From contig JAUIGD010000015.1 in the NCBI GenBank assembly GCA_030430255.1, forward strand, positions 1-35,317: 35,317 nucleotides of DNA. The letters run 5' to 3'. Shown in pieces: positions 5,150 to 33,435 of this stretch. Under the pieces are notes generated by a model. It was not told the DNA's origin, searched no databases, and saw only the letters and a program-made list of their open reading frames with translations. How positions within the stretch are numbered: position 1 is the first letter of the stretch; every line of letters begins with the position of its first letter. Made by a program: the position numbers and the translations under genes. Source of the DNA: Verrucomicrobiia bacterium (GTDB taxonomy: Bacteria > Verrucomicrobiota > Verrucomicrobiia > Verrucomicrobiales > DEV007).

Positions 5150-8100
5150 CTACCGCAGCGGCTCGCCGGGGATCGGTTCGCCATTGGTGCTGACGATGTG
5201 CACTTCGTGCGCGCCGGCTTCCGGGTGGCAAAATTCCCAAACCACCTCCTTGTCCGGGGTCAGCTCGAAGATGCGTGGCTTCTCCGCGTCGCGCTGGCCG
5301 TAGCTGCAGATAATCGTGTTGCCGTTCGGCAGGCGCTGGGCGCCGCAGGGGTCGGCGAAGAGGCCGGGGTTGGTGGTGTTGTCGGCGCGCCAGACGACCT
5401 TCCCCTCCGGGTCGAACTCGACGGTCTTGTTGCCGTGGGTGAGGTTGACCAAGACGTTGCCACCCTCGAGCGGGATGGCGGTGAAGGGCCAGTTCTCGGC
5501 GGCGCGGCCACCGAGCTCCTCGAGGTCGGTGCGGATCGTGCGCACGACCTCGCCGTCCGGGGTGTACTCTTTGACGGCGAAGGCGAGCAGGTGCGGGACG
5601 AGGTAGTTGCCGTTCGGCAGCTTGCGCGCCATGCGGGTCTGCATGTGCTGGTTGTCGGTCTCGGGCTGCAGCGGCACGGCGACCAACACCTTCCCATCGC
5701 GGTCGACCTCCAGGACCTGCGGCTTCTTGCCGAGTTCGACGACCATGGTCACGCCGCCGGCGAGCCGGGTGGCGCGCTCGAGCTCGCCGTTTTCTTCGCT
5801 GATCGTGTACTCCCACACGACCTCGCCGTCGCGCGTGTACTCGCGGGCGTGTCTGGCGTGGGCGATCAAGAGGTTGCCGTCCGGCAAGACGGAGCCGTCG
5901 CGCGAGTTCTCGCCCACCTGCCACAAGACTTCGCCCCCCTCGCCGACCAGCACCGTCTTCGGGCCGGTGATCAGCATGGAGTGCCTGATGCCGGACGCGC
6001 TCACCTGCTTGCCATAGGTGCCCTTCTCGGGTGCGGGCTCGGCTTCGTCCTCCTTCAAAGTGCCGATGTAGGTGATGATGTCGCTGACCTGCTGCGGCGC
6101 CAGCCCGTCGAACAGACCGGGCACCATGAACGAGCGGTTCAGGTAGCGGGCGCGGCGGATCTCGGCCTGCGGGAAGTGCATGTCGACGCCGCCCATGAGG
6201 CGGACCGTGGCGCCGTTCTCGTCGTGCTTGACCATGAAGCCCTCGGCGAGCCGGCCGTCGTGGGTCTCGACCCGGTAGGCGCGGTAGCCGGGTTCGACCG
6301 CGGCGTTCGGGGTGAGGACGGCGCGCAGGAGGCTGTCGAGATCGCGGTGGCCGGAGCCGTCGAGCGGGGGGCCGGCGGCGGCGCCCTCGCCGGCGACCGT
6401 GTGGCAGCTGAGGCAGACGGCTTTGAACAGCACCCGGCCGCGGCCGGCGTCGCCGGGCTGCTGCGCGATGGCGCGGAACTTGGCCAGGCGTTCCTCTTCG
6501 CGCGCGGCCTCGGCTTCGTCGAGCAGATGGGGCGCCTCGGCGACCGCGCTGATCGCGGCGGCACCGTGGAGCTTGCGCGGGTCGCCGCCGAAGGGGAAGG
6601 CGCGGGCGAGGCCGTCGGCGGCGAGCAGGCGGCGGTCGAAGTTGGCGCGGATCTCGTCGGCGCTGCGCTCGACGTCCCAGACGCGGAATTCCATCAGCTC
6701 GCCGGCGGTGCCGGCGTCGGCGGGGGTGGTCTGGCCGATGTTCAGCCCGGCCCAGGTCGCCCCGCTGCGTTTCGAGCCCGGGGTGTCGAGTTCGCCGTTG
6801 ATGTAGATGTGGATCTCACCTCGGGCGCTGCGGGTGACGGCGTAGTGCGTCCACGCGCCGGGGACGGCCTTGCGGGTGGCGACCGCGAGGTCACCGACCC
6901 CCGGCCCGCCGTAGACGCGGAAGCTCTCGGCGAAGAAGTTGAAGTCGGCGCCGCCGGGCCGGCCGAGGATGCCGTCGGCGTTGCTGATGCCGGGGTCGAG
7001 CCGCAGCCAGGTCTCGACGGTGAAGGCGCCCGCGAGGTCGATGCCCGTCGCGGCGTAGTCGGCGGCCGCGCCACCCAGCTTCAGCACGCGGGGGAACTTC
7101 GCGGCCATGGTATTCCAGAGCGCGGTCATGCGCGCGTCGTCGGGGCGCAGCGTGCGCATGCGCTCAAGCACCTCGGGTGTGAGGCCGCTGGTCGGGACCT
7201 TGCCCGCTTCGATGGCGGCGAGCACGACGGCGACGCCGTTGGCCGAACCGGCGAGGCGGTCGACGAGGTCGGCGCGCTGCGGGGCGGGCAGTTCCCCCGC
7301 CGCCGCGACCACCGCGTCGGCGGCGGCCTTTTCCCCGCTGGCGCCGGCGGAGGAGAGGGCGGCGAGCTTCACGGCTGGGGCGGGCGACTTGGTCAAAGCC
7401 AGCACCGCCGGGTCGCCACCCGCGCCGATGCGGTCGAGCGCGTTCAGCGCGGCGATCTTCTGCGGATCGGGCGCGCTCTCTCTCGCGAGAATCCCCAACA
7501 CCTCATCGCGCAGCTCCCCCAAACGGAACGCCGACGCCATCTCGAGCACGAGGTCCTCGCTGCCACCGGCGGCGGCGAGCTCCTTCAAGGCCGGCACCAG
7601 CAGGCCCGCCACCTGCTGCGCATCGACGCGGTCGCCGAGGCGCAGCGTGGCGCGCATCAAGTTCGGCGCCTGCGCGGCGTCGGCGAACAGCCCGGCGACG
7701 ATCGGCGCGAGCCCGGGGTCGGCGTTGCCCCGGAGCAACAGCAGCAGCTCCTCGTCGCTGGGCGGTCGCCCGATGTCGGCCCAGGCCCGGACGAAGCGCG
7801 CGGTGGAGAGCGCCGGCGGCAGCGCGAGCGCGGCGAAGAGCCGGTTCTCGGCGGGGAGTTTTTCCGCGGCGGGGGCGTCGAGGAAGGCGGCGAGCTCCTC
7901 CGGCCAACGCTCCAGCGCGGCGCGCACGAGGTAGCGCTCGAAGGCGCGGTCGTAGGCGGCGCCGGGGGGCAAAGGTTTGCCGTGGCGGCCACCCCACGGC
8001 ACCTCGGCGCCGGCATCGTCGGGCTTCAGCTCGGGTTTCGCGAAAGCGATCAGCGCGGCGATCGATTCCGCACCGCCGCGCGCGAGCGTACGGATCGCCT

Positions 8101-10183
8101 GCGCGCGCACCAGCGGATCCGGGTCCTCGGCGTGCAACGCATCGGCGGCGACGGCTGCGGCCTCGCGGCGGATGTTGTGGTTCTTGTCCGTGCGCAGCGC
8201 CCCGGCGACCGCGGCGTCTGCCAAACCGAGGTCGCGCAAGGCCCAGAGCGCGTGGACCCGCGCGTCGGCCCGGGCTTTGGCATCGCCCGCCAGCGCGCGC
8301 AGCTCCGGGCCGAGCGCCTTCGCGTCGCGGAAGACGATCTGCCGCCACGCGGCGCGCACCGCCCAGGTGGAGTCGGACTTCAGCTGCGCGACGAGCGCTG
8401 CGTCCGGCATCGCCGCGATGTCCGGGACGTCCCGCGCTGTCTGCGAGACGTGGCGCACGCGCCAGACGCGGCCGCGGGTCTTGTCGCGGTCCGGGTGCTT
8501 CCGCGGCACCTCGTTGTGCGAGATGATCTTGTTGTACCAGTCGGTGATGTAGAGGCAGCCGTCGGGACCGAAGCTGATCGCGATCGGTCGGAACCACTCG
8601 TCGTCACAGGTGAGGAAATCGTCGAGCCGCGTGTAATTTTCATCGCCGAGCTTCACGGCGTTGACCGTGCGCGTGATCGGGTTCGCGACGAACATGACGT
8701 CCTGCCACGGCGCGGGGAAGGTGCCGCTCGCGCTGTCGGAAAGAGCCAGCCCGGAGAGCCCGGTGCCGCCGAGTTTGAAGTCCGCGACCGGCGGCGCGAA
8801 GGGCGCGTAGGGTTTGAACTTCTGGTTGCCGATCCCCGGGTAGCTGGAGCCGACCTGGAACGGCACGACGGAGTAGTTCATGTCGTTCGCCTCCTGGATG
8901 AACATCTGCCCCTCGCGCCCGAGCACGAAGCCCCAGATGTTGTTCAAGCCGTAGGCGATGGTTTCAAAGCGGGACCCGTCCGGGCGGAAGCGGCCCATCT
9001 TGCAGTAGTCGAACGACACCGGCCCGTTGCCGCCGGCGACGACCTGCGAGCGGTTGAACGCACCCTGCGCCATCGCGATCCAACCGCCGGGCAACATCGT
9101 GAACTGGTGCGGCATGAGGTGCGAGTCCTGCACGCCGAAGCCCGTCACCAGCACCTCTTTCTTGTCGGCTTTCCCATCGCCGTCGGTGTCGTCGAGAAAC
9201 TGGATCTCGGGCCCCTGGCCGACGATGGCGCCATTTTTCCAAGGCAGCAGCCCCATCGGCATGGCCAGCCCCCCGGCGAAGGTGCGCGGGGTGTGCGGCC
9301 CCTTTCCGAGCGGCTCGTCGAACACGACCACGCGGTCGTTGCCGCCGTTCTTCCAAAGCGCCGCCGCCTGAGCCGGCGACTCGTTGGCATCGACCGGGTA
9401 GTCGGTGGCGGTGATCGCCCACATGCGCCCGGAGTCGTCGAACTGCACCGTGATCGGCTTCGGCAGGCCCGTCTCCTCGCTGGCCACGAGCTCGACCTCG
9501 TAGCCCGCGGGCACGTGGAATGTCTCCAGCTGTTCCGCCGGCGTCAGCGGCGATTCCCTGCGCTCGAACTCCTCGACGGTGATGTCTTTGAACTCGACCT
9601 TCGCCGCGCCGCCGGAGTGGATCTGGACGGCGAACTTCCCCTCGCGGGCGATCTTCGGGTCGCGCTCGATGTAATCGACGGTGAGGACGCCGTTGATCCA
9701 CAGCCGCGATCGCGCGCCCTCGCAGCGGATGACGTACTCGTTCCAATCGTCCCGCCGCACCGCCGGGCCGACCTCCGCGATGTCGCTCTGGGCGATGACG
9801 CGGTTGCGGCGGTGCTCGTCGTAGATGCAGCCCCACCACCCCGGATCACCGATGTCTGCCTGGTAGCCGCTGGCGTGCCCGTCCGGGCGTTCGGCCGAGC
9901 GGAACTGGATGCCGCTGTTGATCATGCCCGTCCCCGGGTCGCCCGTGAGGCGGAACCGACAGCGGAACTCGAAGTCGGCGTACGACCTCTCGGTGAACAG
10001 GAAGTAGTTGTGCGGGATCTTGGTCTCGCCGTCGCCGGCGGTGATCGCCCCGCCCTCGACGCGCCACCGCTCGGGGGTTTTCGAGGTCCAACCGGCGAGG
10101 GTCTCGCCGTCGAAGAGCGACACCGGAGCCGCTGCGGCGTGGATCCCGGCGGACAGGAGGAGCGTGGGCGCGAGGGCTTTCAT
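5150..10183 (-). CDS. DUF1080 / PVC beta-propeller / HEAT / LamG / cytochrome c / C-terminal propeller protein
   Basis: 1677 residues with a signal peptide at 1-18 (MKALAPTLLLSAGIHAAA). Domains in order: DUF1080 at about 20-210 (SLFDGETLAGW, NSGIQFRSAERPDG); the membrane-bound-dehydrogenase propeller at about 220-590 (HVPAGYEVELVASEETGLP, FDDSGRMWAITATDYP); HEAT-like helices at about 600-1020; a LamG/concanavalin-like module at about 1035-1195 (AGAFTVETWLRL, GAWTHYAVTR); and a c-type haem domain with C1257-L-S-C1260-H1261 and distal Met candidates. A second propeller of about 290 residues (from about 1385) has repeated LPDGNLLIAHARH / LPNGNYLVPH / LPNGNTIICSYG motifs. It is probably periplasmic and attached to electron transfer during carbohydrate oxidation. 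The Dabb gene starts 5' of it with only a 20-nt gap, so they probably form an operon. The LamG insertion and the propeller after the cytochrome make it longer than usual. Confidence 0.9.
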   Translation of the reverse strand: MKALAPTLLLSAGIHAAAAPVSLFDGETLAGWTSKTPERWRVEGGAITAGDGETKIPHNYFLFTERSYADFEFRCRFRLTGDPGTGMINSGIQFRSAERPDGHASGYQADIGDPGWWGCIYDEHRRNRVIAQSDIAEVGPAVRRDDWNEYVIRCEGARSRLWINGVLTVDYIERDPKIAREGKFAVQIHSGGAAKVEFKDITVEEFERRESPLTPAEQLETFHVPAGYEVELVASEETGLPKPITVQFDDSGRMWAITATDYPVDANESPAQAAALWKNGGNDRVVVFDEPLGKGPHTPRTFAGGLAMPMGLLPWKNGAIVGQGPEIQFLDDTDGDGKADKKEVLVTGFGVQDSHLMPHQFTMLPGGWIAMAQGAFNRSQVVAGGNGPVSFDYCKMGRFRPDGSRFETIAYGLNNIWGFVLGREGQMFIQEANDMNYSVVPFQVGSSYPGIGNQKFKPYAPFAPPVADFKLGGTGLSGLALSDSASGTFPAPWQDVMFVANPITRTVNAVKLGDENYTRLDDFLTCDDEWFRPIAISFGPDGCLYITDWYNKIISHNEVPRKHPDRDKTRGRVWRVRHVSQTARDVPDIAAMPDAALVAQLKSDSTWAVRAAWRQIVFRDAKALGPELRALAGDAKARADARVHALWALRDLGLADAAVAGALRTDKNHNIRREAAAVAADALHAEDPDPLVRAQAIRTLARGGAESIAALIAFAKPELKPDDAGAEVPWGGRHGKPLPPGAAYDRAFERYLVRAALERWPEELAAFLDAPAAEKLPAENRLFAALALPPALSTARFVRAWADIGRPPSDEELLLLLRGNADPGLAPIVAGLFADAAQAPNLMRATLRLGDRVDAQQVAGLLVPALKELAAAGGSEDLVLEMASAFRLGELRDEVLGILARESAPDPQKIAALNALDRIGAGGDPAVLALTKSPAPAVKLAALSSAGASGEKAAADAVVAAAGELPAPQRADLVDRLAGSANGVAVVLAAIEAGKVPTSGLTPEVLERMRTLRPDDARMTALWNTMAAKFPRVLKLGGAAADYAATGIDLAGAFTVETWLRLDPGISNADGILGRPGGADFNFFAESFRVYGGPGVGDLAVATRKAVPGAWTHYAVTRSARGEIHIYINGELDTPGSKRSGATWAGLNIGQTTPADAGTAGELMEFRVWDVERSADEIRANFDRRLLAADGLARAFPFGGDPRKLHGAAAISAVAEAPHLLDEAEAAREEERLAKFRAIAQQPGDAGRGRVLFKAVCLSCHTVAGEGAAAGPPLDGSGHRDLDSLLRAVLTPNAAVEPGYRAYRVETHDGRLAEGFMVKHDENGATVRLMGGVDMHFPQAEIRRARYLNRSFMVPGLFDGLAPQQVSDIITYIGTLKEDEAEPAPEKGTYGKQVSASGIRHSMLITGPKTVLVGEGGEVLWQVGENSRDGSVLPDGNLLIAHARHAREYTRDGEVVWEYTISEENGELERATRLAGGVTMVVELGKKPQVLEVDRDGKVLVAVPLQPETDNQHMQTRMARKLPNGNYLVPHLLAFAVKEYTPDGEVVRTIRTDLEELGGRAAENWPFTAIPLEGGNVLVNLTHGNKTVEFDPEGKVVWRADNTTNPGLFADPCGAQRLPNGNTIICSYGQRDAEKPRIFELTPDKEVVWEFCHPEAGAHEVHIVSTNGEPIPGEPLR

Positions 10184-10509: not shown

Positions 10510-10724
10510 AGCGCGCAACGGTGCTGCCGCTGCCCACGCAATGCCATGGGTTTTCGCCACGCCGGGATATGGGTTTTCCACACGGCATGCGAGATGCCCA
10601 CGCCAACATACTCAATCTCCACCAAACCGGCGCCCGCCCCGCATTTTTCATGGCTTTGGTCTTGTCCCGCCCGGCCGCGATCGCTATCAAGGCGGTTTCA
10701 AGTTTTCCTAATCCACGGTTTCCG

Positions 10725-12062
10725 ATGAAGCACTCCCCTCTTCTCCCCTCGCTGGCGGCCCTCGCCCTGCTGGGTTCCGCGAGCCCCGGCGCCGAGCTGC
10801 TCGGCCTCTATGATTTCGAAGGCGACTTCGACGACAGCTCCACCGCCGGCAACAACCCGACCGCCGTCAATCCGAACGTCGGCTTCGTCCCGGGCTTCGG
10901 CGGCGGCCAGGCGGCCGACTTCGATCCCGCCTCCACGGGCATCGGCATCAACCTGCCGATCGACCTCAACACCGCGGTGAACCCGGACCTCACCATCGGC
11001 GCCTGGGTCAACGCCGACGCGGTCGCCAACAGCTCCCCCTTCGGCGGTGACGACGGCGGCTGGGACCGCGGCCTCTCGACGGCGGGCTTCGGCACGACCT
11101 GGGGTGTGTCGAACGGCAACATCTACAACTCCGGCCTCCCGGTCGGCGGCGGCTGGCAGTTCTTGGCGGTGACCTTCCGCAACAACATCATGACCGTCAA
11201 TGTCGACGGGGCGACCTTCACCCACGCCGGCTTCCCCGGCCCTTCCGCCCACACCGGGATCTCCGTGGGCTCGCTCAACCCCGGGGCGACCACCCACCCG
11301 TTCAGCGGCGCCATCGACAACTTCTTCGTCTACGACTCCGCGCTCACCGCGAAGCAGCTCGAGGCGATCCGGACCAACGGCATCAGCGCCATCACCCAGA
11401 CCAACGACGCCAACGTCGGCGCGCGCACGGTGCAGAACACCTGGGATTTCGAATCCGGTGACCTGACGGGCTGGACCGTCCTCGCCGCCGGCGTCCCCGG
11501 CTCCAACAATGTCTTCTCCTCAGGCGGGCAGCCTGCCAACACCACCGACGGCGATAGCGCCAATATCAACGCTACCGCCGAAGGCTCATTTTACGTCCGC
11601 ACCTGGGATGGCCAAGCCGGCGGCCTCGGCCTCAGCGACGAGCCCACCGGCGTCATCCGCAGCGACGAGTTCGTCCTCGGACCGAACGCGGAGTTCGAGT
11701 TCCTCGTCGGCGGCGGCAGCCACGCTTGGACGGGTGATCCGGACGACGCCACACTGGCCGACAACATCACCGCCTTCAATTTGGAGCGCGAGGTGGCGCC
11801 CGGCGACTGGGAGGTCATTTTCACCGCCAGCGGCAACGGCAGCCCCGACGACGGTAACTTCTTCCGCGACGGCTTCTGGGATGCCGGCCTGTTCGAGGGC
11901 GAGACCGTCCGCCTCGGCATCTACGACACCCATCAGGGCGCATGGGGGCACATCGACGTCGACAACATCCGCTACTCGACCGCGCTGACCATCCCCGAGC
12001 CGGCCGTCGCCTCGCTGCTCGGCCTGATCGGTGTCGGCCTCATGTTCCGGCGCCGCCGCTGA
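10725..12062 (+). CDS. LamG-like PEP-CTERM sorting-domain protein
   Basis: 445 residues from the ATG at 10725 (MKHSPLLPSLAALALLGSAS, a signal peptide ending near residue 23). An upstream in-frame start at 10521 would bury the signal peptide, so I rejected it. Residues about 25-200 are a LamG/concanavalin module (LGLYDFEGDFDDSS, LTIGAWVNAD, FSGAIDNFFVYDSALTAKQL). Residues about 225-420 form a jelly-roll ending HQGAWGHIDVDNIRYS, which resembles the [13 protein letters not shown] domain of the PVC-type protein at 109-3347. The C-terminus, IPEPAVASLLGLIGVG followed by LMFRRRR, is a canonical PEP-CTERM tail: PEP, a hydrophobic span and an arginine cluster, processed by exosortase. It is thus a surface or exopolysaccharide-associated protein, monocistronic, with its own terminator at 12088-12123. 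Confidence 0.92.
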   Translation: MKHSPLLPSLAALALLGSASPGAELLGLYDFEGDFDDSSTAGNNPTAVNPNVGFVPGFGGGQAADFDPASTGIGINLPIDLNTAVNPDLTIGAWVNADAVANSSPFGGDDGGWDRGLSTAGFGTTWGVSNGNIYNSGLPVGGGWQFLAVTFRNNIMTVNVDGATFTHAGFPGPSAHTGISVGSLNPGATTHPFSGAIDNFFVYDSALTAKQLEAIRTNGISAITQTNDANVGARTVQNTWDFESGDLTGWTVLAAGVPGSNNVFSSGGQPANTTDGDSANINATAEGSFYVRTWDGQAGGLGLSDEPTGVIRSDEFVLGPNAEFEFLVGGGSHAWTGDPDDATLADNITAFNLEREVAPGDWEVIFTASGNGSPDDGNFFRDGFWDAGLFEGETVRLGIYDTHQGAWGHIDVDNIRYSTALTIPEPAVASLLGLIGVGLMFRRRR

Positions 12063-12185: not shown

Positions 12186-15100
12186 ATGTGCACCCCCGCC
12201 CGCCTCCCCCTCGCCGCCGGCCTGCTCGCCGCATCGGCATGGGGCGCGATCGCCGCCGAACCGGTCTTGCGCGGCGCCGGCTCCTTCCGCTTCGACCCGC
12301 GCCTCGAAGAGCTCTTCGAGACCATCGACCCCGCCAAGGCCGGCTGGGAAAGCGAGGTGTTCCACGACGGGGCGAAGGGGCAGCTGCACCACCTCTGCGA
12401 GGCCATCGAGTCCGCCCCCGCGCTGACCGCGGAGGCCGTCGCGGCCTGCGTCGCGGAGGGCGCGACCGCGACCGGCTTCGACCGCGGCTCGCAGACCACG
12501 CGCTCCCAGTTCGACGGCAGCGGCCTGGCCGTGCGCCGCTTCGAGCGCTCCGAAGACGCCGCCCCCCTCCCCCTCGCCGGCGCGCTCGACTCCGCCTTCG
12601 CGGCGATCAAAGGCGGTCCGGACGCGCGCCACGCAATCAAGATCGAGAGCGTCGAGCTCGCCCCCGACGGCACCTCCGCCGCGACCCAGCTCCGCGTGCA
12701 GTTCTGCTGCGACCGCGGCGGGGGGGCGCGGGCACAAATCAACCACCGCTGGACCGCGACCTGGTCGCGCCCCGCCGGCGGCGCGCCGCCGCGGATCACC
12801 GCGCTGGCCTTGATCGACGGCTCCGAGGTGATCCCCGACTCCGCCGACCAATCCGTGCCGGCGCCCGACCGGCTCGCCTTCGCCGACGCCACCGTCGCCC
12901 TGCTCGGCGACAACCCCTGTTTCGCCGCCCAGCTCGCGCCGCCCTACGACCACTGGCGCGCGCGCAGCGACCGCCTGATGGGCACCGACTTCACCAGCAA
13001 CCAGGGGGTCGCGCTCGGCGACGCCGACGGCGACGGGCTCGACGAGCTGTTCCTCTCGCAGCCCGGCGGCCTGCCGAACAAGCTCTTCCGCCACCTCCCC
13101 GACGGGCGCGCCGAGGACATCAGCGCCGCCTGCGGGCTCGACTACCTCGACTTCACCCGCACCGCGCTGTTCGTCGACTTCGACAACGACGGCGACCAGG
13201 ACCTCGTCGTCGGCCTCTCATGGCACCTCATCTTCATCCGCAACGACGGCCCCGCCGCGGGCGGCGGCGTCCGCTTCACCCCGCGCTTCCGCGCCGCCTG
13301 CCCAGGCATGGTCTACGCGCTGGCCGCCGCCGACTACGACGGCGACGGCGACGTCGACCTCTACGCCAGCGGCCGCTACGCCGACGACTCCCTGGCCAGC
13401 GAGCGGCAGGTGCTCGGCATCCCCGTGCCCTACCACGACGCCAACAACGGCGGCCGCAGCTCGCTCTGGCGAAACGAGGGCGAGCTCGTCTTCAAAGACG
13501 TCACCGCCGAGGTCGGGCTCGACCAGAACAACACCCGCTTCACCCTCGCGGCGGCGTGGGAGGACTACGACGGCGACGGCGACCAGGACCTCTACGTCGC
13601 CAACGACTTCGGCCGCAACAATCTCTATCGAAACGATGGAGGCAAATTCACCGACGCCGCGGCGGCGGCGGGAGTCGAGGACATCGGCGCCGGCATGTCG
13701 GCGAGCTGGGGCGACTACGACGGCGACGGGTTGCCCGACCTCTACGTCGCCAACATGTACTCCAGCGCCGGCCACCGGATCGCCTCGCAGGCGCGCTTCA
13801 TGGAGGGCGCCGACCCGCGCACCGCCGCCGCCTTCCTGCGCCACGCGCGCGGCAACTCCCTGTTCCGCAACCGCGGCGACGGCACCTTCGAGGACACCAC
13901 CATGGCCGCCGGCGTCAACATGGGCCGCTGGGCCTGGAGCTCCCTGTTCGCCGACCTCGACAACGACGGCCGCCGCGACCTGATCGTCGCCAACGGCTTC
14001 ATCAGCGCCGAGGGCACCGACGACTTGTGAAGCTTCAACTGGCGGCAGGTCGTGTCGCTCTCCCCCTCCGGCGCCGACCCCGACGGCTCGCTCTTCTCCT
14101 ACCGGCGCGGCTGGTCGGCCATCAACACCCTGCTCGACAAGGGCGCCTCGCTCAGCGGCGGCGAGCGGCACTGCGCCTACCTCAACCTCGGCGACGGCAC
14201 CTTCGCCGACGTCTCGTCGGCGGCGGGGATCGACTTCCCCGACGACGGTCGCTCGCTGGCGCTCGGCGACTGGGACTGCGACGGCGACACCGACCTCTTC
14301 TTCACCAACCGCACCGCCCCGCGGCTGCGCTTCCTGCTCAACGAATCGCGCGGCGACAACCGCTTCGTCGCGATCAAATTGACCGGGACAAGGTGCAACC
14401 GCGACGCCATCGGCGCCCGCCTCGAACTGGCGGTCCGCGACGGGGCGGAGGCCCGGACCTCCGTCGCGACCGTCCGCGCCGGCGACGGCTTCCTCGCCCA
14501 GTCGAGCAAGTGGGTCCACTTCGGCCTCGGCGCCGCGACCGGGATCGAGAAACTCACCGTGCGCTGGCCGGGCGGCGACGTCGAGCAGCACCCCTTACCG
14601 GAAGCAAACGCCTTCTACACCCTCACCCAGGGCGGCGCCCCGGAGCGCTGGACGCCGCCGGGCAAGCCGAAACTCCAACCCTCACCGTTCACCCCGCCGC
14701 CCGCCGAGGAGTCGATCCGCGTCTTCATGCCCGCCCGGGTGCCGATGCCGAACGCGCGCTGGACGGACCTCGACGGCGCCGGGCACGACCTCGTCGGGGG
14801 CGGGGGGGGACCGCGTTTGGTGAACCTCTGGGCCGCTTGGTGCGCCCCCTGCCTCGCCGAACTCGCCGAGTGGACCGCCGCCGCCGAGCAGCTCCGGGCG
14901 CTCGGTTTGGACATCGTCGCCCTCGCCGTCGACGGCATCGATGACGACGGGCGCAGCACCGAAGCCGACGCCCGCGCCAAGATCGCCGAGCTGGGGTTCC
15001 CCTTCCGGGCGGGCTTCGCCGACGAACCCCTGCTCGAGCGCATGGAGATCGTCGCCGACGCGCTCATCGACAAGCACAACTCCCTCCCCGTCCCGACCAG

Positions 15101-16097
15101 CTTCCTGCTCGATGCGCAGGGCGAGGTCGCCGCGATCTACAAAGGCAAGGTCGCGCTCGAGCAGCTCGCCCGCGACGTGCGGGCGCTCGCCGCCCCGCCC
15201 GGCGACTGGCGCTTCTTCGCCACCCCCTTCCGCGGCCGTTGGATCCAGAGCCCGCCTCAGGCCTCGCCCTCGGAGCTGGTCACCAACTTCGTCACCCTCG
15301 GCGACACCGCCGACGCTGAGGACTACCTCGCGCGCTGGGTCGAGGCCCGCGCGCCGACCCCGGGCCGCGACGGGCAGGTCGCCGAAGCGTACTACGCCGT
15401 CGCCGGCGCCTACCGCAGCGCCGGCGACCTCCCGGCGGCGATCGCGAACTACCGCGAGGCGCTCAAGTACTCGCCGCGCCAGCCCAGCATCCACACCGAC
15501 CTCGGCATCGCCCTCGTGCAGACGAAGCGCCCCGACCTGGCCATCCCGCACTTCAGCTCGGCGGTCGCCTCCAACCCCAACGACGTCGACACCCGCCGCC
15601 GGCTCGTGCTCGCCATGGTCTCCGCCCGCCGCGCCGCCGACGCCCTGCCACACCTCGAAGCCCTGTTGGCCGGAGCACCGGACGACCCCACCGGCCAGCT
15701 CCTCTACGCCAAATCGCTCAAGAGCCACGGCCGCGCCGCGGATGCCGTCACCGCCTACCGCAGGGCTCTCGACCTCCAACCCGGCTGGCCTTTGGCGGCC
15801 AACGAACTCGCCTGGACCCTCGCCACCCACCCCGACGAGTCGGTCCGCGACGGCGCCGAGGCGCTGCGCTTGGCGAAGATCGCAGACGCGGCCACCGGCG
15901 GCTCCGAACCGGCCGTCCTCGACACCCTCGCCGCCGCCCAAGCCGAAGCCGGCCTGCTCGACGAAGCCAAGGCCACCGCCGCCCGCGCGATCGAACTCGC
16001 CGAGGCCAAAGGGCAGACCGGCCTCGCCTCGCTGCTGAAAACCCGTCGCGCGGCCTACGAGTCGGGCGCGGCCTTCCGCGAGGGCACGGATCGCTGA
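12186..16097 (+). CDS. candidate selenoprotein: FG-GAP/VCBS – ASPIC/UnbV – thioredoxin – TPR fusion (TGA at 14028-14030 read as Sec615)
   Basis: A single frame of 1304 codons begins at ATG 12186 with a signal peptide (MCTPARLPLAAGLLAASA). Its one internal stop is TGA at codon 615, in DDL-U-SFNWRQVV. Seven calcium-binding-type FG-GAP/VCBS turns lie on both sides of it (for example DYDGDGDQDLYVAND before, DWDCDGDTDLFFTN after), so the propeller needs both halves. ASPIC/UnbV spans about 725-815 (IGARLELAVRDG, VRWPGGDVEQ). A TlpA/AhpC-like thioredoxin domain spans about 855-1000 with W-C886-A-P-C889, and TPRs span about 1055-1270. A bSECIS-like hairpin follows the TGA. The protein should act in the periplasm, perhaps in redox chemistry or protein thiol handling. 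Alternatives: a nonsense change of TGG (Trp) or a sequencing error. Gene callers will split it at 14030 and start the second part at GTG 14052. No selA/B/C/D gene is in the window. Confidence 0.72.
14041..14059 (+). promoter_or_regulatory. bSECIS-like stem-loop downstream of the in-frame TGA
   Basis: GCGGCA (14042-14047) pairs with TGTCGC (14053-14058), including one G·U, and an outer G14041·U14059 can add to it. The loop is GGUCG. The GGU of the loop begins 17 nt after the TGA; in E. coli fdhF the GGUCU loop lies 18 nt after its UGA, and bacterial SECIS apical loops are generally reported at roughly 16-37 nt. The stem-loop overlaps the GTG at 14052 that gene callers would pick as a restart. 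The assignment rests on this visual fold only. Confidence 0.6.
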
Positions 16098-17941: not shown

Positions 17942-18018
17942 GTGACAAAGGCGTCACTTTGGGATGGCTTTTACCCCTTTTCGGGCTAGATTCTCGATCC
18001 GATTTTGCCCAAAATCGG
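17942..18018. promoter_or_regulatory. two palindromes upstream of the VTC gene
   Basis: In the 186-nt gap before the VTC gene, GTGAC (17942-17946) and GTCAC (17953-17957) form a short inverted repeat. CCGATTTTG (17999-18007) and CAAAATCGG (18010-18018) form a perfect 20-nt palindrome ending 56 nt before the ATG. They could be operators of the polyphosphate cluster; the second could also be a hairpin in the leader. Neither resembles a Pho box that I can recognise. Confidence 0.45.
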
Positions 18019-18074
18019 AGCTTTGTCGTGTCCGGCGCCCGGGGTTCCCCGCCGACGACACGCCGATTCTCTCG

Positions 18075-18989
18075 ATGCCCAAAACCCTCCAGATCAAAGC
18101 CCCTCCGCCCGCCAACCAGCCGGACATGCCCCGGCTGCAGGTGGACGCCGGCCCGTCGCGGAAGGACGTCAAAGACAAGATCATCGAGCGCTTCGAGCAG
18201 AAGTACATCATCCACCCGCGGCTCGTCCCGAAAATCCGCGAGTACATCAAGCCCTTCTGCATCCCCGACCCGAACGGCAAGGGCCACATCCCGGAGTACA
18301 CCGTCACCACGCTGCAGCTCGACACGCCGACCATGGACCTGGCGCTCGCCAAGGAGCGCAAGACCTTCGCCCGTTTCAAACTGCGCATCCGCACCTACGG
18401 CAAGGGGGGATCCGCACCCGTGTTCCTCGAGCTGAAACGCAAGGTCGGCGGCGTCATCATCAAGAGCCGCTCGAAGATGACGATGGAGCAGTACCGCGGC
18501 GACAACGATGGCCGCCCCGTCGTCCTCTACCCCCAGGAGCTGCCGCTGCTCAAGAACCCGGTCGACAACCACTACTTCCTGGAGTTCTCACGCGTCGCCC
18601 GCGCCATCGAGGCACGCCCGAAGATGCTCATCCGCTACATCCGCGAAAGCTACTTCGGTGCCAACGACGACTACGCGCGCCTCACCTTCGACCGCCGTAT
18701 CTGCTACCGCCCGACCCGCCGGTGGAACCTGCCGGGCATCGAGGAATCGCGGGGCTGGCGCCCGATGGACACCCAGACGGGCCTCAACCGTCCCTTCGCG
18801 GGCTACATCTTCGAACTCAAGGCCATGCGCGACGCCCCGCAGTGGATGCTGGAGCTCGTCGAACGTTTCAATTTGACCACCACCGGCTTCTGCAAGTACG
18901 CCACCGCCTGGCGGTTGGAGACCCTGTTCCGCGGCTTCGAGTACGACGCCCAGTCGATGAACACGACGGTCACCAACAACAGCATCTAG
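18075..18989 (+). CDS. VTC-domain polyphosphate polymerase
   Basis: 304 residues from the ATG at 18075 (MPKTLQIKAPPP); the longer in-frame extension from 17964 crosses the upstream palindrome and is not conserved-looking. The VTC tunnel-fold domain fills about 36-285: ERFEQKYIIHPRL (start of the barrel), TVTTLQLDTPTMDLAL (the D-T-P motif), the basic strand FKLRIRTYG at 101-109, FLELKRKVGGVIIKSR, RLTFDRRICYRP and a late FELKAM strand. The alternating Lys/Arg/Glu on these strands matches the triphosphate-tunnel pocket that binds NTP and metal. The family makes polyphosphate from ATP; yeast Vtc4 is the type case. No SPX domain is present, as in other bacterial forms. The next gene is DUF4956, a known neighbour of bacterial VTC proteins. 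Confidence 0.9.
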   Translation: MPKTLQIKAPPPANQPDMPRLQVDAGPSRKDVKDKIIERFEQKYIIHPRLVPKIREYIKPFCIPDPNGKGHIPEYTVTTLQLDTPTMDLALAKERKTFARFKLRIRTYGKGGSAPVFLELKRKVGGVIIKSRSKMTMEQYRGDNDGRPVVLYPQELPLLKNPVDNHYFLEFSRVARAIEARPKMLIRYIRESYFGANDDYARLTFDRRICYRPTRRWNLPGIEESRGWRPMDTQTGLNRPFAGYIFELKAMRDAPQWMLELVERFNLTTTGFCKYATAWRLETLFRGFEYDAQSMNTTVTNNSI

Positions 18990-19089
18990 CCCGGCAGATC
19001 CCCCAGACCAACTCCCCCCAAAACCTCCCCCAAACCCCAACCGCCCAACCGAACCGCCCACAACGCCCGCTCACCAGAGACCCTTCCCG

Positions 19090-19773
19090 ATGGATTCCTT
19101 CTTCACCGCTCTTGGCCCCTCGCAGTCCCTCAACGCCATCGACGCGGTCTTCTCCCTGACGCTGAGCTTCGTCCTCGGGCTGGTGCTCGCCACCGTCTAC
19201 CGCTGGACGCACCAGAGCTTCTCCTACGCCCGCTCCTTCCTCCACACCATGGTGCTGGCAGCGATCGTCATCACCGTCATGATCATGGCGATCGGCAACA
19301 ACATGGCGCGCGGCCTCGGCATCATGGGCGCCATGGCCTTCGTCCGCTTCCGGACCCCCATCCGCGACCCGCGCGACATCATCTTCCTGTTCGCCTCGCT
19401 CTCGGTCGGTATCGCCTCCGGCGCCCAGGTGCACGACATCGCCATCATCGGCACGCTCTATTTCTGCGCCACCGCGATGTTCCTCGCCTGGTCGCCCTTC
19501 GCCTCGCGGCGCGAGTTCGAGGGCCTGCTCCGGTTCATGCTGCCGGCGGACTCCCCCTCCCAGCACTACCTGCACGACATTTTCCAAAAGTACGCCAGCA
19601 GCACCGAGATGGTCGCCATGCGCGAGGCCATCCAGGGGGAGGTGCAAGAATACTCCTACCAGATCCGGCTCATCGACCCGTCCTACAAAACCGACCTTGT
19701 CGATACCCTCTCCAAGCTCGAAGATATTTCGGAGGTCAGCCTCGTCATGCAGCGCACCACCGTCGAGATCTGA
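19090..19773 (+). CDS. DUF4956 membrane protein
   Basis: 227 residues. The N-terminal half has four predicted membrane segments at about 17-38, 49-68, 74-84 with 98-110, and 117-136. The conserved loop is GLGIMGAMAFVRFRTPIRDPRDIIFLFASL, the DUF4956 signature (M-A-F-V-R-F-R-T plus R-D-P-R-D). The C-terminal 80 residues form a soluble alpha/beta domain (YSYQIRLIDPSYKTDLVDTL) like the ferredoxin-like cytosolic domain of MgtC-type proteins. DUF4956 proteins are routinely next to VTC polymerases and may form the membrane partner or polyphosphate channel, but this is inference. The gene starts 100 nt after the VTC stop on the same strand, and the two are likely in one operon. Confidence 0.9.
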   Translation: MDSFFTALGPSQSLNAIDAVFSLTLSFVLGLVLATVYRWTHQSFSYARSFLHTMVLAAIVITVMIMAIGNNMARGLGIMGAMAFVRFRTPIRDPRDIIFLFASLSVGIASGAQVHDIAIIGTLYFCATAMFLAWSPFASRREFEGLLRFMLPADSPSQHYLHDIFQKYASSTEMVAMREAIQGEVQEYSYQIRLIDPSYKTDLVDTLSKLEDISEVSLVMQRTTVEI

Positions 19774-19847
19774 CCGCCTCCGCCCGCCCCCACTCACTCC
19801 CCCACCTCTCCGCTCCCCCGAACGCCCCCGCGCACCCCTAAGTCCCG

Positions 19848-20981
19848 ATGAGCAACGAACTCCCCGCCAGCCCGAAGGCGAAAAAGGGTTCTTCCTACCG
19901 CATCCGCCGCATCACCCAGATGTGGCCGCTGCTGATCTGGATCGGCGCCCTCGCCTTCTTCGTCTACCTCTACATCAACCGCGGCGGCTACGAGCGCGCC
20001 AACGGCATGGTCTTCTCGAACACCGAAGACATCGCCGCCCCGGAGGACGGGGTGATCAAGACCGTCCACGTCCGCGATGGCGACACGGTCAAGCGGGGCG
20101 ACACCTTGGTGACCCTCGACCCCACCCTCCTCGAGCGTGAGATGGAACAACTCCGGCGCACCTTGGTGATCGAGGCGCTGGAGCGGAAGCGGCGCTTCCA
20201 GGCGAACTTCGCCGACGCCCGCGACGCCCTCGCCCAAGCACAGGCGGAGCAGGCGCGCGACCAGGTCGATTACGACAACGCCGTGGAGGCCTTCGAACAG
20301 GCCAAGATCGACCGCCAGAACAACGCCATCACCGAACTCCAACTCCAAGAGGCGGAACGCTTGGTGGGCGAACTCAACAGGAAGCTCGGCACCCACACCA
20401 TCAGGATCATGGAGCTCTCCCAGATCAAGCAGGACGCCTTCGACCTGCTCGGAGAACTCCCGGAGACCGCCTCACCGCAAGACCCCGACGAGAAGCCGAA
20501 GGAACTCGTCCTCCTCGAGGAACGCCTCAAGGCCAAGACCATCGTCGCCGACTCCGACGGCGTGGTGCAGAAGGTCCACAAGCTGCGCGGCGTCACCCGC
20601 ATCGGTGACCCCATCCTCACCATCATCCCGACCGACGACGACTCCGACCGAGCGGCGAAGCTGGTGCGCGGGTTCGTCAGGCAGACCGAGCACCCGGAGG
20701 AGCTCCATGTCGGCGACACCATCTGGATCAGCGAGCGCGTCGAGAACCCGGTCGCCTACCCCGCCGAGATCGTCTCGGTCGCCCCGGACATCACCGCCAT
20801 CGAAAACTACGGCACCCAGATCGCCGGCGGTTTCCTCCGCGGCCGCGAGTTCCTCTGCCAGCTCCCCGACGACCTCGCCGAACTCCTCCCCGGCACCTCG
20901 GTCGTGATCCACCGCGAGGAGCCTGGCAAGTTCAACATCTGGACCTTCGGCCGCAATCCGGTCAAGGCGGCGGCGAAGTAG
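19848..20981 (+). CDS. HlyD-type membrane fusion / adaptor protein
   Basis: 377 residues with one membrane anchor at about 26-45 (MWPLLIWIGALAFFVYLYI) preceded by a basic cytoplasmic head. After it come a biotinyl-lipoyl half motif (AAPEDGVIKTVHVRDGDTVK, about 64-83), a long coiled coil rich in Glu, Lys and Gln at about 95-200, and the second lipoyl half (VADSDGVVQKVHKLRGVTRIG, about 236-256). Then comes a beta-barrel region with IWISERVENPVAYPAEIVSV. HlyD-type adaptors link an inner-membrane transporter to the outer membrane. No ABC or RND pump gene is adjacent. Its position 74 nt after DUF4956 suggests it works with the VTC/DUF4956 pair, perhaps linking polyphosphate or its channel to the periplasm; this is inference. 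Confidence 0.88.
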   Translation: MSNELPASPKAKKGSSYRIRRITQMWPLLIWIGALAFFVYLYINRGGYERANGMVFSNTEDIAAPEDGVIKTVHVRDGDTVKRGDTLVTLDPTLLEREMEQLRRTLVIEALERKRRFQANFADARDALAQAQAEQARDQVDYDNAVEAFEQAKIDRQNNAITELQLQEAERLVGELNRKLGTHTIRIMELSQIKQDAFDLLGELPETASPQDPDEKPKELVLLEERLKAKTIVADSDGVVQKVHKLRGVTRIGDPILTIIPTDDDSDRAAKLVRGFVRQTEHPEELHVGDTIWISERVENPVAYPAEIVSVAPDITAIENYGTQIAGGFLRGREFLCQLPDDLAELLPGTSVVIHREEPGKFNIWTFGRNPVKAAAK

Positions 20982-29033: not shown

Positions 29034-32000
29034 CTACCGCAGGGTGGCGAGGTAGCTGACCACGTCGCGGATCTCCTCCGGCTGCAGGATCGCCCCCATC
29101 GGCGGCATGAGCGAGAGGACGCTGTGCGCGGCCACCGCACCGGCCTCGACCACCCGCTCGCCCGCGTCGGGCAGCACCACCGTCCAGGCGCTGTCGGTGC
29201 GCGCCTTGAGCGTCCCGGCGACCCTCTCGCCCCCTGCCAACTCCAACAAGACGGTGCCATAGCCGTCGGCGACGCTCGCCGACGGATCGGCCAGCGCCTC
29301 GACCAGCTCCCGCCGCCCCAGCTTCGCGCCGATCCCCGACAGGTCCGGCCCGATGCCCGCGGCGGGTCCGCCGCCGCCTCGCTCGCCGATCTGGTGGCAG
29401 CGGAGGCATTGGGCGGCGGCGTGGGTGAACACGATCCCTCGGCCGCGCCCGGGGTCGCCGCCGCGCTCGAGGCGATCCGGTGTCGCCGGCAGATCGACGC
29501 CCTTCGCCGCCGCCGCCCGCCAGACCTCCAGCTTCCATCGCGGGTCGATCCCCCCCGCCCGATAGCGTTCGAAGAGCTCCCCCAAGGCCTCACCCGCGGC
29601 CGGGTCATCGAGGTCCGCCAACCCCAAGACGGCCGCGCCTTTGCCCCAGGGGCCGGGCGCGTCGAGCTCGGCGAGCAGGAGGTCGACGGCCGCCAACCCC
29701 GCCGCGTCCGCATGCCGCCGCGCCTCCTCCCGCACGGCGGCGTCCTCCGAACCCAGGGCGAGCTGGACGAACCGGGCGAGCTCCGGGCTCGCCACTTTCG
29801 CGGACGCCGCGAGATAGCGCCGTTGCAACCCGGGCGGCCACGCCGCGAAGCGCTCCCCGGCACCGGCCAACCAAGCCGGTTCGCCGCGGAGCGCGACCCC
29901 GTCCAAAAGCACTTCGGTCAGCTCCTCGCTGGCGAAGATCACATCGCTCAGCGCCGCCACCGCCGCGTCCGCCCCGGCGCCGTCGCGCGGCGCATGCTTC
30001 CGGTAGCGCCCCTCGACCGCATCCAGCACCGGGGGCGCCGACCACCAGAGGATGCTCGCCAACGCGCAGCGCTGCAGGGTCGCGCTCGCCGTGCCGCGCC
30101 GCAAGAACCCGACGAGCAGGTCCAGATCGCGCTCCGCGCCGACGCGCAGCGCAGCGTTGATCGCGCGGCGCAGCGCCGCCTCGCCCGACAGGTCGTCGCG
30201 CTTCAGCACGGCGGCCAAGTCGGGCAGCGCGGCCGGGATCGAGGCGTCGTCGTGGATCGCCCGCGCCGCCTCCAACACCACCAGTTCGTCCGCGTCGGCG
30301 AGGAAGGCGCGCACCTCGGGGGCGGCGAGCTTGCGCAGCGCCACGACGGCACCGAGCCGCACCGTGCGGCTCTCGTGCGACGCCAACCCCGCAAGCTCCC
30401 CCGGCGTCATGGCCCCCTTCAGCCCCATGACCGCCGCGTGGCGCAGGTAGGCGTCCTCCGCCCCGCCGGTCGCCAGCAGCTCGACCAACGCCGGCGCCGA
30501 CGCGCGGTCGCCGCGGTTCCCGAGCGCGATCGCGCAGAAGAACCGCACCCGCGGCGATGCGTGCGCCAGGCCGGCGCGCAGCGCGGGCAAGTCCGCCGCG
30601 CCGCCCTCGACCTCGCCGGTGACCTTCGCCGCCTGAGCGACCAACTCCGGCTCGCCGCTCTCCCAGGCAGGGGCCAGGAGGGGCAGGAGGTCGGGGTCCC
30701 GCCGGGCGAGCTGGCCGATGCCCCAGACCGAATGCAGGCGCCCGACCGGCGTCTCCGCCTCGACGAGCGCCCGCTGCAGATGTTGCACCCCGCCGTCGGC
30801 ACCACGCCGTGCCAGCTCGAGCTGCCCCTTCATGCGCACGCGGCGGTCGGCGTGGTCGAGCCAGGCGACCAGCGCCTCAGGCGCCGCCTCCGCCGAAGGG
30901 GTCGCCAAGATCGCCGCCGTCTCGGCGCGCAGCGGGTGCCGCTCCGCCTCCGGGACGTCGAATCGGTACACCGCGCCGTCCCCCGCGCCGTAGCTGGCGG
31001 CGTAGAGCGCGCCGTCCGGGCCGAAGGCCAGCCCGGTGTTGTTCACCCCGCCGCTCAGCTTCGGCCGCTCGCCGAAGCGGAAGGACGCCCCTTCCGGCTC
31101 GAATTCGAACACGCGCACCTCGCCCTTCTGGTTGGTCATGAAGAAGCTCGTGCCCAGCCCCGGAGACAGCGCCGTGCCCGGGTTGGCGGCGAACCCGCAC
31201 GGCCCGGGGCCGAAATTGCCGATCGTCGGCGTCAGGTACGCGGCGTGCCCCTCGCGGTCCGGCAGGAACAGCTTCTCGTCCATCCACGGGTTGTAGGCCG
31301 GCAGGCCGCTGATCTTGCCGAACTCGCCCTTGCCGAGCCATTGCCAGTTCAGCCGCCAACCGTGCTCGCTGCCCTCGGTGATGTAGAGGGCGCGCTCCAT
31401 CTCGCCCGGGTAGTCGCCGTCGTTGTCCATGCTGAACAGGTTGCCGAAGGCGTCGAAGGCCAGCTCCTGCGCGTTGCGCTCGCCGGTCGAGAAGCGCTCC
31501 ACCCCGCTCCCGTCGAGTTCGCAGCGGAACACGGCGCCGGCGTTGGGCATGTGATAGAGCGCGCCCTCGGCGGTCTCCACGCAGTGCCCCTTGTCGCCCA
31601 GCGACCAGTAGACCCTGCCGTCGGAACCCAACGCGACACCGCTCATGTTGTGCCCGCCCTGCCCCATGTGGACCTGGAACCCGGTGGCGACCAGCTGCCG
31701 CCCGCCGCGGTCGGGCAGGCCGTCGCCGTCGCTGTCGGTGTAGCGGTAGAAGTCCGGCTCGGCGGCGACGAACAGGTCCGCGCCCACCGCGAGCACGCCG
31801 GCGGCGATCCCGGTGACTTCGCTGTGGAAGGCGTCGACCTCCTCCACCGAGCCGTGCGGGCGCACGCGCACGACGCGGTCGCGCTGCACGGTGAGGTCGC
31901 GCCAGTCGCGCGTCCCGTCCCCGTCGCGGTCCGGCAGCCAGCCCGCGCCCGTGAAGTCTTCGCGATACCACGCGCGCCGCTCCTCGACGGTGGTCAGCGA

Positions 32001-32621
32001 CAGGTCCCTCTCCACCAGATCTTGGTGGTGGCGGATGTCGAGGCTCGACTGCTTGCGCCGCTCGGACACCGCGACGTAGGCGTTGCCGCGGTCGTCGAGC
32101 GAGAGCGCGACGCCGTTCTTCAGCGCAGGGTCGGCGACCCACGCCCGGGCCTCGCCCGCGCTCGACTCCAGCGGCGGCACGCCGGGCAGCGCGATCGTGT
32201 GGATGTTCGCCCAGGGGCTCGCCTCGCTCCCGTACACGGTCACCCGGACGAAGCGCGCCTCCACCGGGCCGATCGCGTAGGCGACCGTGCCGGCCTCCCC
32301 CCGGCTCTGCAACCGCCCCCCGGTGCCGCTCTGCCAACGCCCGCCGTCGGGCGAGGTGAAGATTTCGAACCCGTAGTCACGCTCGCCGTGGTGGAAGCCG
32401 ATGCGCACCGAGTCGATGCGAAGCGGCGCGCTCAGCTCCGCCTGCACCCAGCGCCCGTGCCCGTGCGACGACCAGCGGGTGCCGGGGTCGGCGTCGAAGG
32501 CGCCCACCGGCGGGTTGCCGTCCTGCGCGTCGGCCGCGGTGGCCGCCTTGATGGTCACCTCAGCGCGGGCCAAGGTGGCGAACAGCGCGCCGGACGCGAG
32601 GATGAGGGGAGCTTTGGGCAT
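29034..32621 (-). CDS. PVC-type discoidin / beta-propeller / HEAT / cytochrome c protein
   Basis: 1195 residues from the ATG at 32621 (MPKAPLILASGALFATLARA, a signal peptide); a longer frame from 33077 runs antisense through exbB and is not used. Residues about 22-145 are an F5/8-type C (discoidin) domain (FDADPGTRWSSHGHGRWVQA, ARFVRVTVYG). The PVC-type propeller spans about 165-580 (ALSLDDRGNAYVAVSERRKQ, LSMDNDGDYPGE-like blades, NNTGLAFGPDGALYAASYG). HEAT-like repeats fill about 590-1040. The cytochrome domain has C1072-L-R-C1075-H1076 and a distal LMPPMG methionine site, ending IRDVVSYLATLR. It is a likely periplasmic haem protein that passes electrons from an oxidised carbohydrate or alcohol, with substrate unknown. 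It is divergent from exbB across 112 nt, and the 3' element follows its stop. Confidence 0.92.
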   Translation of the reverse strand: MPKAPLILASGALFATLARAEVTIKAATAADAQDGNPPVGAFDADPGTRWSSHGHGRWVQAELSAPLRIDSVRIGFHHGERDYGFEIFTSPDGGRWQSGTGGRLQSRGEAGTVAYAIGPVEARFVRVTVYGSEASPWANIHTIALPGVPPLESSAGEARAWVADPALKNGVALSLDDRGNAYVAVSERRKQSSLDIRHHQDLVERDLSLTTVEERRAWYREDFTGAGWLPDRDGDGTRDWRDLTVQRDRVVRVRPHGSVEEVDAFHSEVTGIAAGVLAVGADLFVAAEPDFYRYTDSDGDGLPDRGGRQLVATGFQVHMGQGGHNMSGVALGSDGRVYWSLGDKGHCVETAEGALYHMPNAGAVFRCELDGSGVERFSTGERNAQELAFDAFGNLFSMDNDGDYPGEMERALYITEGSEHGWRLNWQWLGKGEFGKISGLPAYNPWMDEKLFLPDREGHAAYLTPTIGNFGPGPCGFAANPGTALSPGLGTSFFMTNQKGEVRVFEFEPEGASFRFGERPKLSGGVNNTGLAFGPDGALYAASYGAGDGAVYRFDVPEAERHPLRAETAAILATPSAEAAPEALVAWLDHADRRVRMKGQLELARRGADGGVQHLQRALVEAETPVGRLHSVWGIGQLARRDPDLLPLLAPAWESGEPELVAQAAKVTGEVEGGAADLPALRAGLAHASPRVRFFCAIALGNRGDRASAPALVELLATGGAEDAYLRHAAVMGLKGAMTPGELAGLASHESRTVRLGAVVALRKLAAPEVRAFLADADELVVLEAARAIHDDASIPAALPDLAAVLKRDDLSGEAALRRAINAALRVGAERDLDLLVGFLRRGTASATLQRCALASILWWSAPPVLDAVEGRYRKHAPRDGAGADAAVAALSDVIFASEELTEVLLDGVALRGEPAWLAGAGERFAAWPPGLQRRYLAASAKVASPELARFVQLALGSEDAAVREEARRHADAAGLAAVDLLLAELDAPGPWGKGAAVLGLADLDDPAAGEALGELFERYRAGGIDPRWKLEVWRAAAAKGVDLPATPDRLERGGDPGRGRGIVFTHAAAQCLRCHQIGERGGGGPAAGIGPDLSGIGAKLGRRELVEALADPSASVADGYGTVLLELAGGERVAGTLKARTDSAWTVVLPDAGERVVEAGAVAAHSVLSLMPPMGAILQPEEIRDVVSYLATLR

Positions 32622-32733
32622 CGGGGACTGGACACCCCGACCCGCCCTTCCGTCAACGCCCGCCGGACCGGGCTCCAACTCCCTGAAAGACAAGCGTGCG
32701 ATCGCGGCGTAAGAAACGCCGACACCCTGCACC

Positions 32734-33435
32734 GTGCCCGATCCCACCCCCGCCTCCACCCCGCTCCCCGGCGCCCTCGGCCTGCTCGTCGAGGGCGGTA
32801 TCTTCATGTGGCCGATCCTCGCGCTGCTGGTCGTCGCGGTCGCCGTGATGATCGAGCGCTGGCGCAGCTTGAAGATGCTCGACGTCGACTCCTCGGCGCT
32901 GCGGGAGCGGGTCGGTGAACATCTGACGCGCAATGAGATCGAGGCCGCGCTCGAGCTGACCGAGAACGCCCGCGGTCCGGTGGCGGGGATCTTGGCCAAC
33001 GGCCTGCGCAAGTACCTCGTGCTGCGGCGCCTCGGCCACGATGCCGCCCGCACCGAAGAGGGCGTCCTGAAGAGCATGGAGAGCTACGGCTCCCACATCG
33101 TCGCCGCGCTCGAGAGGCACCTGCCGGTCTTGGCCACGGTGGCCAGCGTCGCCCCGATGCTGGGCTTCCTCGGCACCGTCGCCGGCATGATCGAGTCGTT
33201 CGGGGAGATCGTCGCGACCATGGGCGAACAGAACATCGTCGAAGCTGCCGCCGACGGCATCAAGACGGCGCTGCTGACGACCTGTTTCGGCCTCATCGTC
33301 GGCATCCCCGCCTACATCGCCTTCAACTACTTCACCGGCGTCATCAACGGCTTCGTGCTCGAGGTCGAAAGCTCCGCCGCCGAACTCGTCGAACACGTCA
33401 CGGTGCAACTCACGCTCGAGGAGGGGGAGGCCTGA
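32734..33435 (+). CDS. exbB: MotA/TolQ/ExbB proton channel family protein
   Basis: 233 residues from a GTG at 32734. Three membrane segments: about 21-40 (GGIFMWPILALLVVAVAVMI), 132-154 and 176-200. The signature PMLGFLGTVAGMIESF at 141-156 and the TM3 stretch ALLTTCFGLIVGIPAYIAF at 179-197 are those of ExbB/TolQ, including the Thr pair that lines the proton path. With ExbD it forms an inner-membrane stator that uses proton-motive force to drive an energy-transducing partner (TonB-like or TolA-like). ExbD follows after 32 nt. No tonB or tolA is in the window; the giant TPR protein nearby is a conceivable partner. Whether it is ExbB or TolQ by orthology cannot be decided here. Confidence 0.92.
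   Translation: MPDPTPASTPLPGALGLLVEGGIFMWPILALLVVAVAVMIERWRSLKMLDVDSSALRERVGEHLTRNEIEAALELTENARGPVAGILANGLRKYLVLRRLGHDAARTEEGVLKSMESYGSHIVAALERHLPVLATVASVAPMLGFLGTVAGMIESFGEIVATMGEQNIVEAAADGIKTALLTTCFGLIVGIPAYIAFNYFTGVINGFVLEVESSAAELVEHVTVQLTLEEGEA

Follow-up and report, generated by a model that had tools for sequence, protein, structure and literature searches.

Within a window of 35,317 nucleotides (the whole stretch of DNA analysed here), we identified a forward-strand gene of 1303 codons (12186-16097) that very probably encodes a selenoprotein, its single internal UGA being read through as selenocysteine (Sec), the rare 21st amino acid. The predicted product combines an FG-GAP beta-propeller, an ASPIC/UnbV domain, a thioredoxin-like domain and TPR repeats, and would belong to a CRTAC1-like selenoprotein family that is large, distributed over several phyla and apparently undescribed. 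This assignment derives from computational analysis alone, and the incorporation of selenium remains unproven in the absence of any experiment. The original prediction had seen a single gene; its status as a candidate Sec gene stands, but it is actually one member of this multi-phylum family.

Reading frame and conservation of the UGA codon

As originally predicted, a single frame runs from 12186 to 16097, interrupted by exactly one stop, the TGA at 14028-14030 (codon 615), and closed by a true terminator that is also a TGA (16095-16097). Homologous full-length frames were found in 24 relatives. The anticipated continuity of domains across the TGA was confirmed with Pfam, which placed FG-GAP_3 (5 stretches), UnbV_ASPIC, AhpC-TSA and TPR matches on both sides of it in one continuous frame. 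All on the forward strand, these comprise the propeller (12933-14400, also supported by the AlphaFold model and Foldseek), the ASPIC/UnbV domain (14406-14618, aa 741-811), an AhpC-TSA/TlpA-like thioredoxin domain (14751-15134, aa 856-983) with WCAPC at 14838-14852, and the TPR repeats (15375-15977). FG-GAP and UnbV were detected in all 25 full-length members, AhpC-TSA in 14 and TPR in about 12 of them. The protein begins with the stretch MCTPARLPLAAGLLAASAWGAIAA (12186-12257), which looks like a signal peptide from its translation, no signal-peptide predictor having been run; many homologues look like lipoproteins, with a lipobox-like LxGC at the N-terminus (alignment consensus MxRxxRxxxxxxxxxxLxGC).

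The first relatives were recovered by scanning GTDB genome contigs, and the site codon was UGA in 15 out of 15 loci aligning across it (L009-L019 and the more distant L021, L026, L031 and L040), labelled as Verrucomicrobia(les), Planctomycetota, Acidobacteria and one 'Proteobacteria'. The same scan returned other FG-GAP proteins devoid of the Sec-bearing segment. The host assembly itself harbours nine members of the family, every one with a single in-frame TGA, and in addition a paralogue (L106) with TGC, hence Cys, at this column. The UGA could in principle be an ordinary stop in a split or decayed gene, leaving downstream either a pseudogene or a protein with its own start, as the GTG-start frame at 14052-16097 would allow. 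We consider this highly improbable, since different phyla, as well as the nine members in the host genome, share this UGA and the homologous frame that follows it, with homology retained on both sides of the codon and both halves conserved.

Read over 123 family sequences, the column contained UGA in 69, the others having C, G, S, N, A, E, Q, D, R, P or a gap. Homologues with uniform Trp at this position, or reads showing TGG, would have refuted Sec decoding; the column is not Trp, and the recurrence of TGA in many independent genomes rules out a read error of TGG. None of the refutation tests named and run contradicted Sec, and its assignment to residue 615 is thus supported. By contrast, the expectation that homologues would carry either Cys or an in-frame TGA was only partly fulfilled: TGA indeed extends across phyla, and Cys occurs in a single side clade (including L106 and the homologues of genomes G290 and G340), but the usual replacement is not Cys. 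Where Sec has been lost, the column mostly contains Gly, Ser, Asn, Ala, Glu, Gln, Asp or Arg, indicating that a plain swap of thiol for selenol does not hold as a rule and that the data do not compel a redox role. A tree of 84 rows, based on 148 columns only and with many unresolved forks, requires a minimum of five transitions between Sec and non-Sec states. Non-Sec forms may have lost a Sec-dependent activity.

D613, U/C615, W619 and E660 are among the positions that do not vary between the aligned Sec and Cys forms, the last of them lying within a conserved SGxERx loop (14154-14171); apart from position 615, the propeller has no invariant Cys. A link between the loss of Sec and the replacement of Glu660 by Gln, as seen in L130, L131 and L154, was considered and rejected, Glu being kept in most non-Sec forms. 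Two acidobacterial groups were also observed. Loci L224-L237 exhibit a near-identical motif, [DE][LIM][G/S/N/A/Q]SFFWRQV, with Gly, Ser, Asn, Ala or Gln in place of Sec and a decayed hairpin, and a divergent subfamily with the motif -DLU-LP[FY]- (L245, L246, L247, L249 and L251) has UGA at the same column.

The hairpin downstream of the UGA and the codon preceding it

In bacterial selenoproteins of the E. coli FdhF type, the UGA is followed by a SECIS element with a GGUC-type loop, which is read by SelB. The hairpin predicted for the window gene is present, with a 5' arm GCGGCA (14042-14047), an apical loop GGUCG (14048-14052) beginning 17 nt past the UGA, and a 3' arm TGTCGC (14053-14058). 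Folded alone, its stability is unremarkable (z=+1.7 over 48 nt, -0.2 over 38 nt and -2.3 for the 24-nt core). Not being significant over 38-48 nt, single-sequence folding was rejected as a proof of SECIS, and we relied instead on comparison.

When synonymous codons were resampled with amino acids kept fixed, the hairpin exceeded the null mean in 23 of 24 genes (mean z 1.7), a result that is only indicative as these genes are related. RNAalifold yielded no structure on all 24 mixed sequences, because two registers were mixed, but succeeded once the classes were separated: on 49 aligned genes, it returned exactly the stem 14042-14047/14053-14058. In this alignment, 98.9% of the stem cells were paired, and two-sided changes occurred in 13 cells, versus 2.1 in shuffles. 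The innermost pair is A-U where the protein has Gln/His...Val/Leu and G-C where it has Arg...Ala/Thr (8 of 9 Arg cases), so that the coupled Gln>Arg and Val>Ala substitutions are two amino-acid changes preserving one RNA pair.

A further comparison was restricted to close homologues sharing the protein motif around the site: the six base pairs are all preserved in 51 of 53 UGA genes and in only 1 of 38 sense-codon homologues (p=6e-22), meaning that the hairpin depends on the UGA and not on the protein motif. This retention of the hairpin only alongside the UGA also argues against an ordinary stop. From covariation and UGA-dependence, we regard the hairpin as a real SECIS, and both recoding and SECIS were established computationally. 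GGUC loops also extend to divergent members, on a different stem in L021 (GCGCAC[GGUC]GUGCGC) and as GCGC[GGUC]GCGC or GUGC[GGUC]GCAC in the -DLULP- group. The UGA-containing selD gene of the host (L157:265-267, G000 C531) has a hairpin CCC[GGUC]GGG, with the same loop letters as the family SECIS. Searches against Rfam returned no SECIS family match, even at lax thresholds.

A further cis feature lies immediately 5' of the Sec codon, where the Leu codon is TTG (14025-14027). TTG is strongly favoured across the family at this position, being used in 15 of 20 genes versus 2.8 expected from the usage of the genes themselves, and in 36 of 53 UGA genes versus 1 of 38 sense-codon homologues. This bias, additional to the SECIS, remains without explanation and possibly reflects an upstream recoding context.

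Selenocysteine machinery and distribution of the family

The host assembly, a metagenome-assembled genome of 6.6 Mb (89% complete, 6.75% contamination), encodes the complete set of genes that Sec decoding had been predicted to entail, namely selA, selB, selD and a tRNA-Sec (63.7 bits, with ARAGORN in agreement). SelD is itself UGA-containing, with TGA as the active-site codon of the usual CGUAAK motif. An organism-wide reassignment of UGA, for instance to Trp or Gly, could also account for in-frame UGA in several host genes. It is nevertheless even less credible than an ordinary stop: UGA still terminates the window gene (16095), several paralogues and the upstream gene (TGA 12060), none of the relatives read has Trp at the column, and tRNA-Sec and SelB are present. 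Ending at UGA itself, the window gene indicates that this codon has not been globally reassigned. Since the assembly is a metagenome-assembled genome, the conclusion that a single cell has both the gene and the machinery also rests on their co-occurrence across other genomes.

SelB was detected in 25 of 388 genomes of the host's phylum, and the two with the TGA form (G000 and G350) both have it. Four further genomes (G290, G340, G311 and G224), all 97% complete, have full-length homologues without TGA, in which the columns read contain Cys, Gly or Asp; neither SelB nor tRNA-Sec was found in these four. Overall, tRNA-Sec was present in 17 of 17 UGA-form genomes (the 15 of the first TGA loci, G350 and G000), versus none of the four with full-length non-UGA forms only (Fisher p=1.7e-4). 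Among the 15 first-locus genomes, SelB passed the cut-off in 12 and fell just below it in a 13th, versus 23 of 386 genomes in the sample of the window's phylum (p=1e-11), a comparison that crosses phyla. In the phylum sample of the Planctomycetota locus, 109 of 392 genomes had a family match, 69 being listed with TGA, and SelB was found in 64 of these 69 versus 141 of 283 family-free genomes (p=3.6e-12). The corresponding acidobacteriotal sample had family matches in 88 of 391 genomes, many with TGA. The family thus occurs in about a quarter of the sampled planctomycete and acidobacterial genomes, with UGA in many of its members, and the expectation that its presence follows the Sec machinery across genomes was met. 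The sampled genomes are interrelated, and these p-values overstate the number of independent events.

No conserved gene neighbourhood emerged among 50 neighbours. In the window, the gene directly upstream (10521-12062, forward strand) encodes a protein with a LamG domain, whose last residues, EPAVASLLGLIGVGLMFRRRR, resemble a PEP-CTERM anchor. Two large flanking reverse-strand genes (5150-10183 and 29034-33077) encode DUF7133 and cytochrome c proteins, one with 3-keto-disaccharide hydrolase and LamG domains, the other with HEAT repeats and F5/8 type C. On the forward strand, genes for VTC-domain, DUF4956 and HlyD/biotinyl-lipoyl-like proteins stand in a row (17964-20981), perhaps forming a polyphosphate or surface-export cluster.

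Fold, potential function and novelty of the family

An AlphaFold model of 12933-14672 (24 rows) reached a pLDDT of 87.9 and a pTM of 0.90, and its top Foldseek match was murine CRTAC1 (9etn, E 3.8e-26, TM 0.68/0.71), which was also the best sequence match among solved structures (4.9e-38). Both the family and its fold are computational results. The propeller and ASPIC/UnbV domain are common to the window protein and the CRTAC1/ASPIC-UnbV FG-GAP proteins (PF07593, PF13517). However, the alignment with the CRTAC1 profile flanks the Sec-bearing insert without running through it, and the thioredoxin-like and TPR regions are additions of the window protein. In the model, a helix within this inserted segment starts with Sec (model residue 366).

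Under our preferred reading, SelB carrying Sec-tRNA-Sec would bind the SECIS hairpin at UGA 14028, and Sec would be inserted as residue 615 in place of release-factor termination, producing a CRTAC1-like selenoprotein whose export is inferred. The predicted Sec would begin a short helix in the propeller insert, as part of the motif D-x-U-S-x-x-W-R, with the conserved SxSGxE loop about 40 residues further on. Among possible activities, a redox-active site outside the cytoplasm, peroxidase or thiol-oxidoreductase-like, appears the most likely, but this extracytoplasmic redox role is an inference that we advance tentatively and with less than even confidence, Sec chemistry and catalytic function being unproven. 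In the window protein, the C-terminal TlpA-like CxxC domain would probably supply reducing equivalents, and the TPR region would probably serve for docking. Such in-cis reduction, itself inferred, cannot be general, as 11 of the 25 members match no AhpC-TSA model.

Sec might instead be inserted without being catalytic, and serve to bind a metal, to store selenium or to act as a regulatory, selenium-sensing switch that selects between a short and a long product. Non-Cys replacements are common, failed read-through would yield a 614-aa instead of a 1303-aa protein, and one genome harbours nine copies, all of which would be compatible with such roles. On the other hand, the position of Sec at a helix N-terminus, in a motif whose Asp, Trp and Glu do not vary, looks like a site, and thioredoxin-like domains are fused in 14 of 25 members. 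A non-catalytic Sec is thus unlikely, without being negligible.

The window gene resembles FdhF-type selenoproteins by its UGA, its hairpin with a GGUC-type loop beginning 17 nt downstream and the full Sec machinery of its host, but its Sec lies in a propeller and not in a molybdopterin enzyme or a Trx-fold site. The restriction of Cys relatives to one clade further distinguishes the family from other bacterial selenoproteins. Its C-terminal domain with WCAPC recalls the TlpA/ResA/DsbE thiol-disulfide oxidoreductases; in this family, however, it is merely an appended domain, absent from many members.

The prior supposition that no ASPIC/UnbV selenoprotein had been described agrees with the sources consulted. 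The catalogue of 119 prokaryotic selenoprotein families of Zhang et al. 2026 (PMC13188914, Table 1) contains no FG-GAP, VCBS, ASPIC, UnbV or CRTAC1 family. It includes thioredoxin-like selenoproteins (Redoxin family, TlpA-like), from which the window protein differs in that its thioredoxin-like domain keeps CxxC and its Sec is in the propeller. No CRTAC1-like propeller family appears in deep-Sep (PMC12013277), no NCBIfam (June 2026) selenoprotein model matched the window protein over the cut-off, and the literature searched revealed no ASPIC/UnbV or FG-GAP selenoprotein, the families of Haft & Tolstoy 2025 (mSystems) being compared only as represented in PMC13188914.

Taken more broadly, and with somewhat better than even confidence, these sequences may represent an undescribed and very widespread superfamily of exported CRTAC1-like propellers in Planctomycetota, Verrucomicrobiota and Acidobacteriota, with up to nine copies per genome and its own co-evolving recoding cassette (a UUG-biased pre-UGA codon and a GGUC/GGUCG SECIS). 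It would have been overlooked because the mostly non-Cys replacement of lost Sec defeats gene finders based on Sec/Cys pairs, and its Sec chemistry is possibly other than thiol-disulfide exchange. Methods depending on Cys relatives would tend to miss such a family, suggesting that selenoprotein numbers are underestimated in surveys built on Cys homologues; the deep-Sep authors acknowledge that their own method may miss selenoproteins without Cys homologues (PMC12013277). Gene callers stopping at UGA would likewise split its genes. Among the bacterial selenoprotein families of environmental genomes, this one seemingly ranks with the more numerous; its propeller fold is absent from the PMC13188914 catalogue, and the family offers a handle on the role of the poorly understood ASPIC/UnbV propellers and on why the phyla concerned use selenium.
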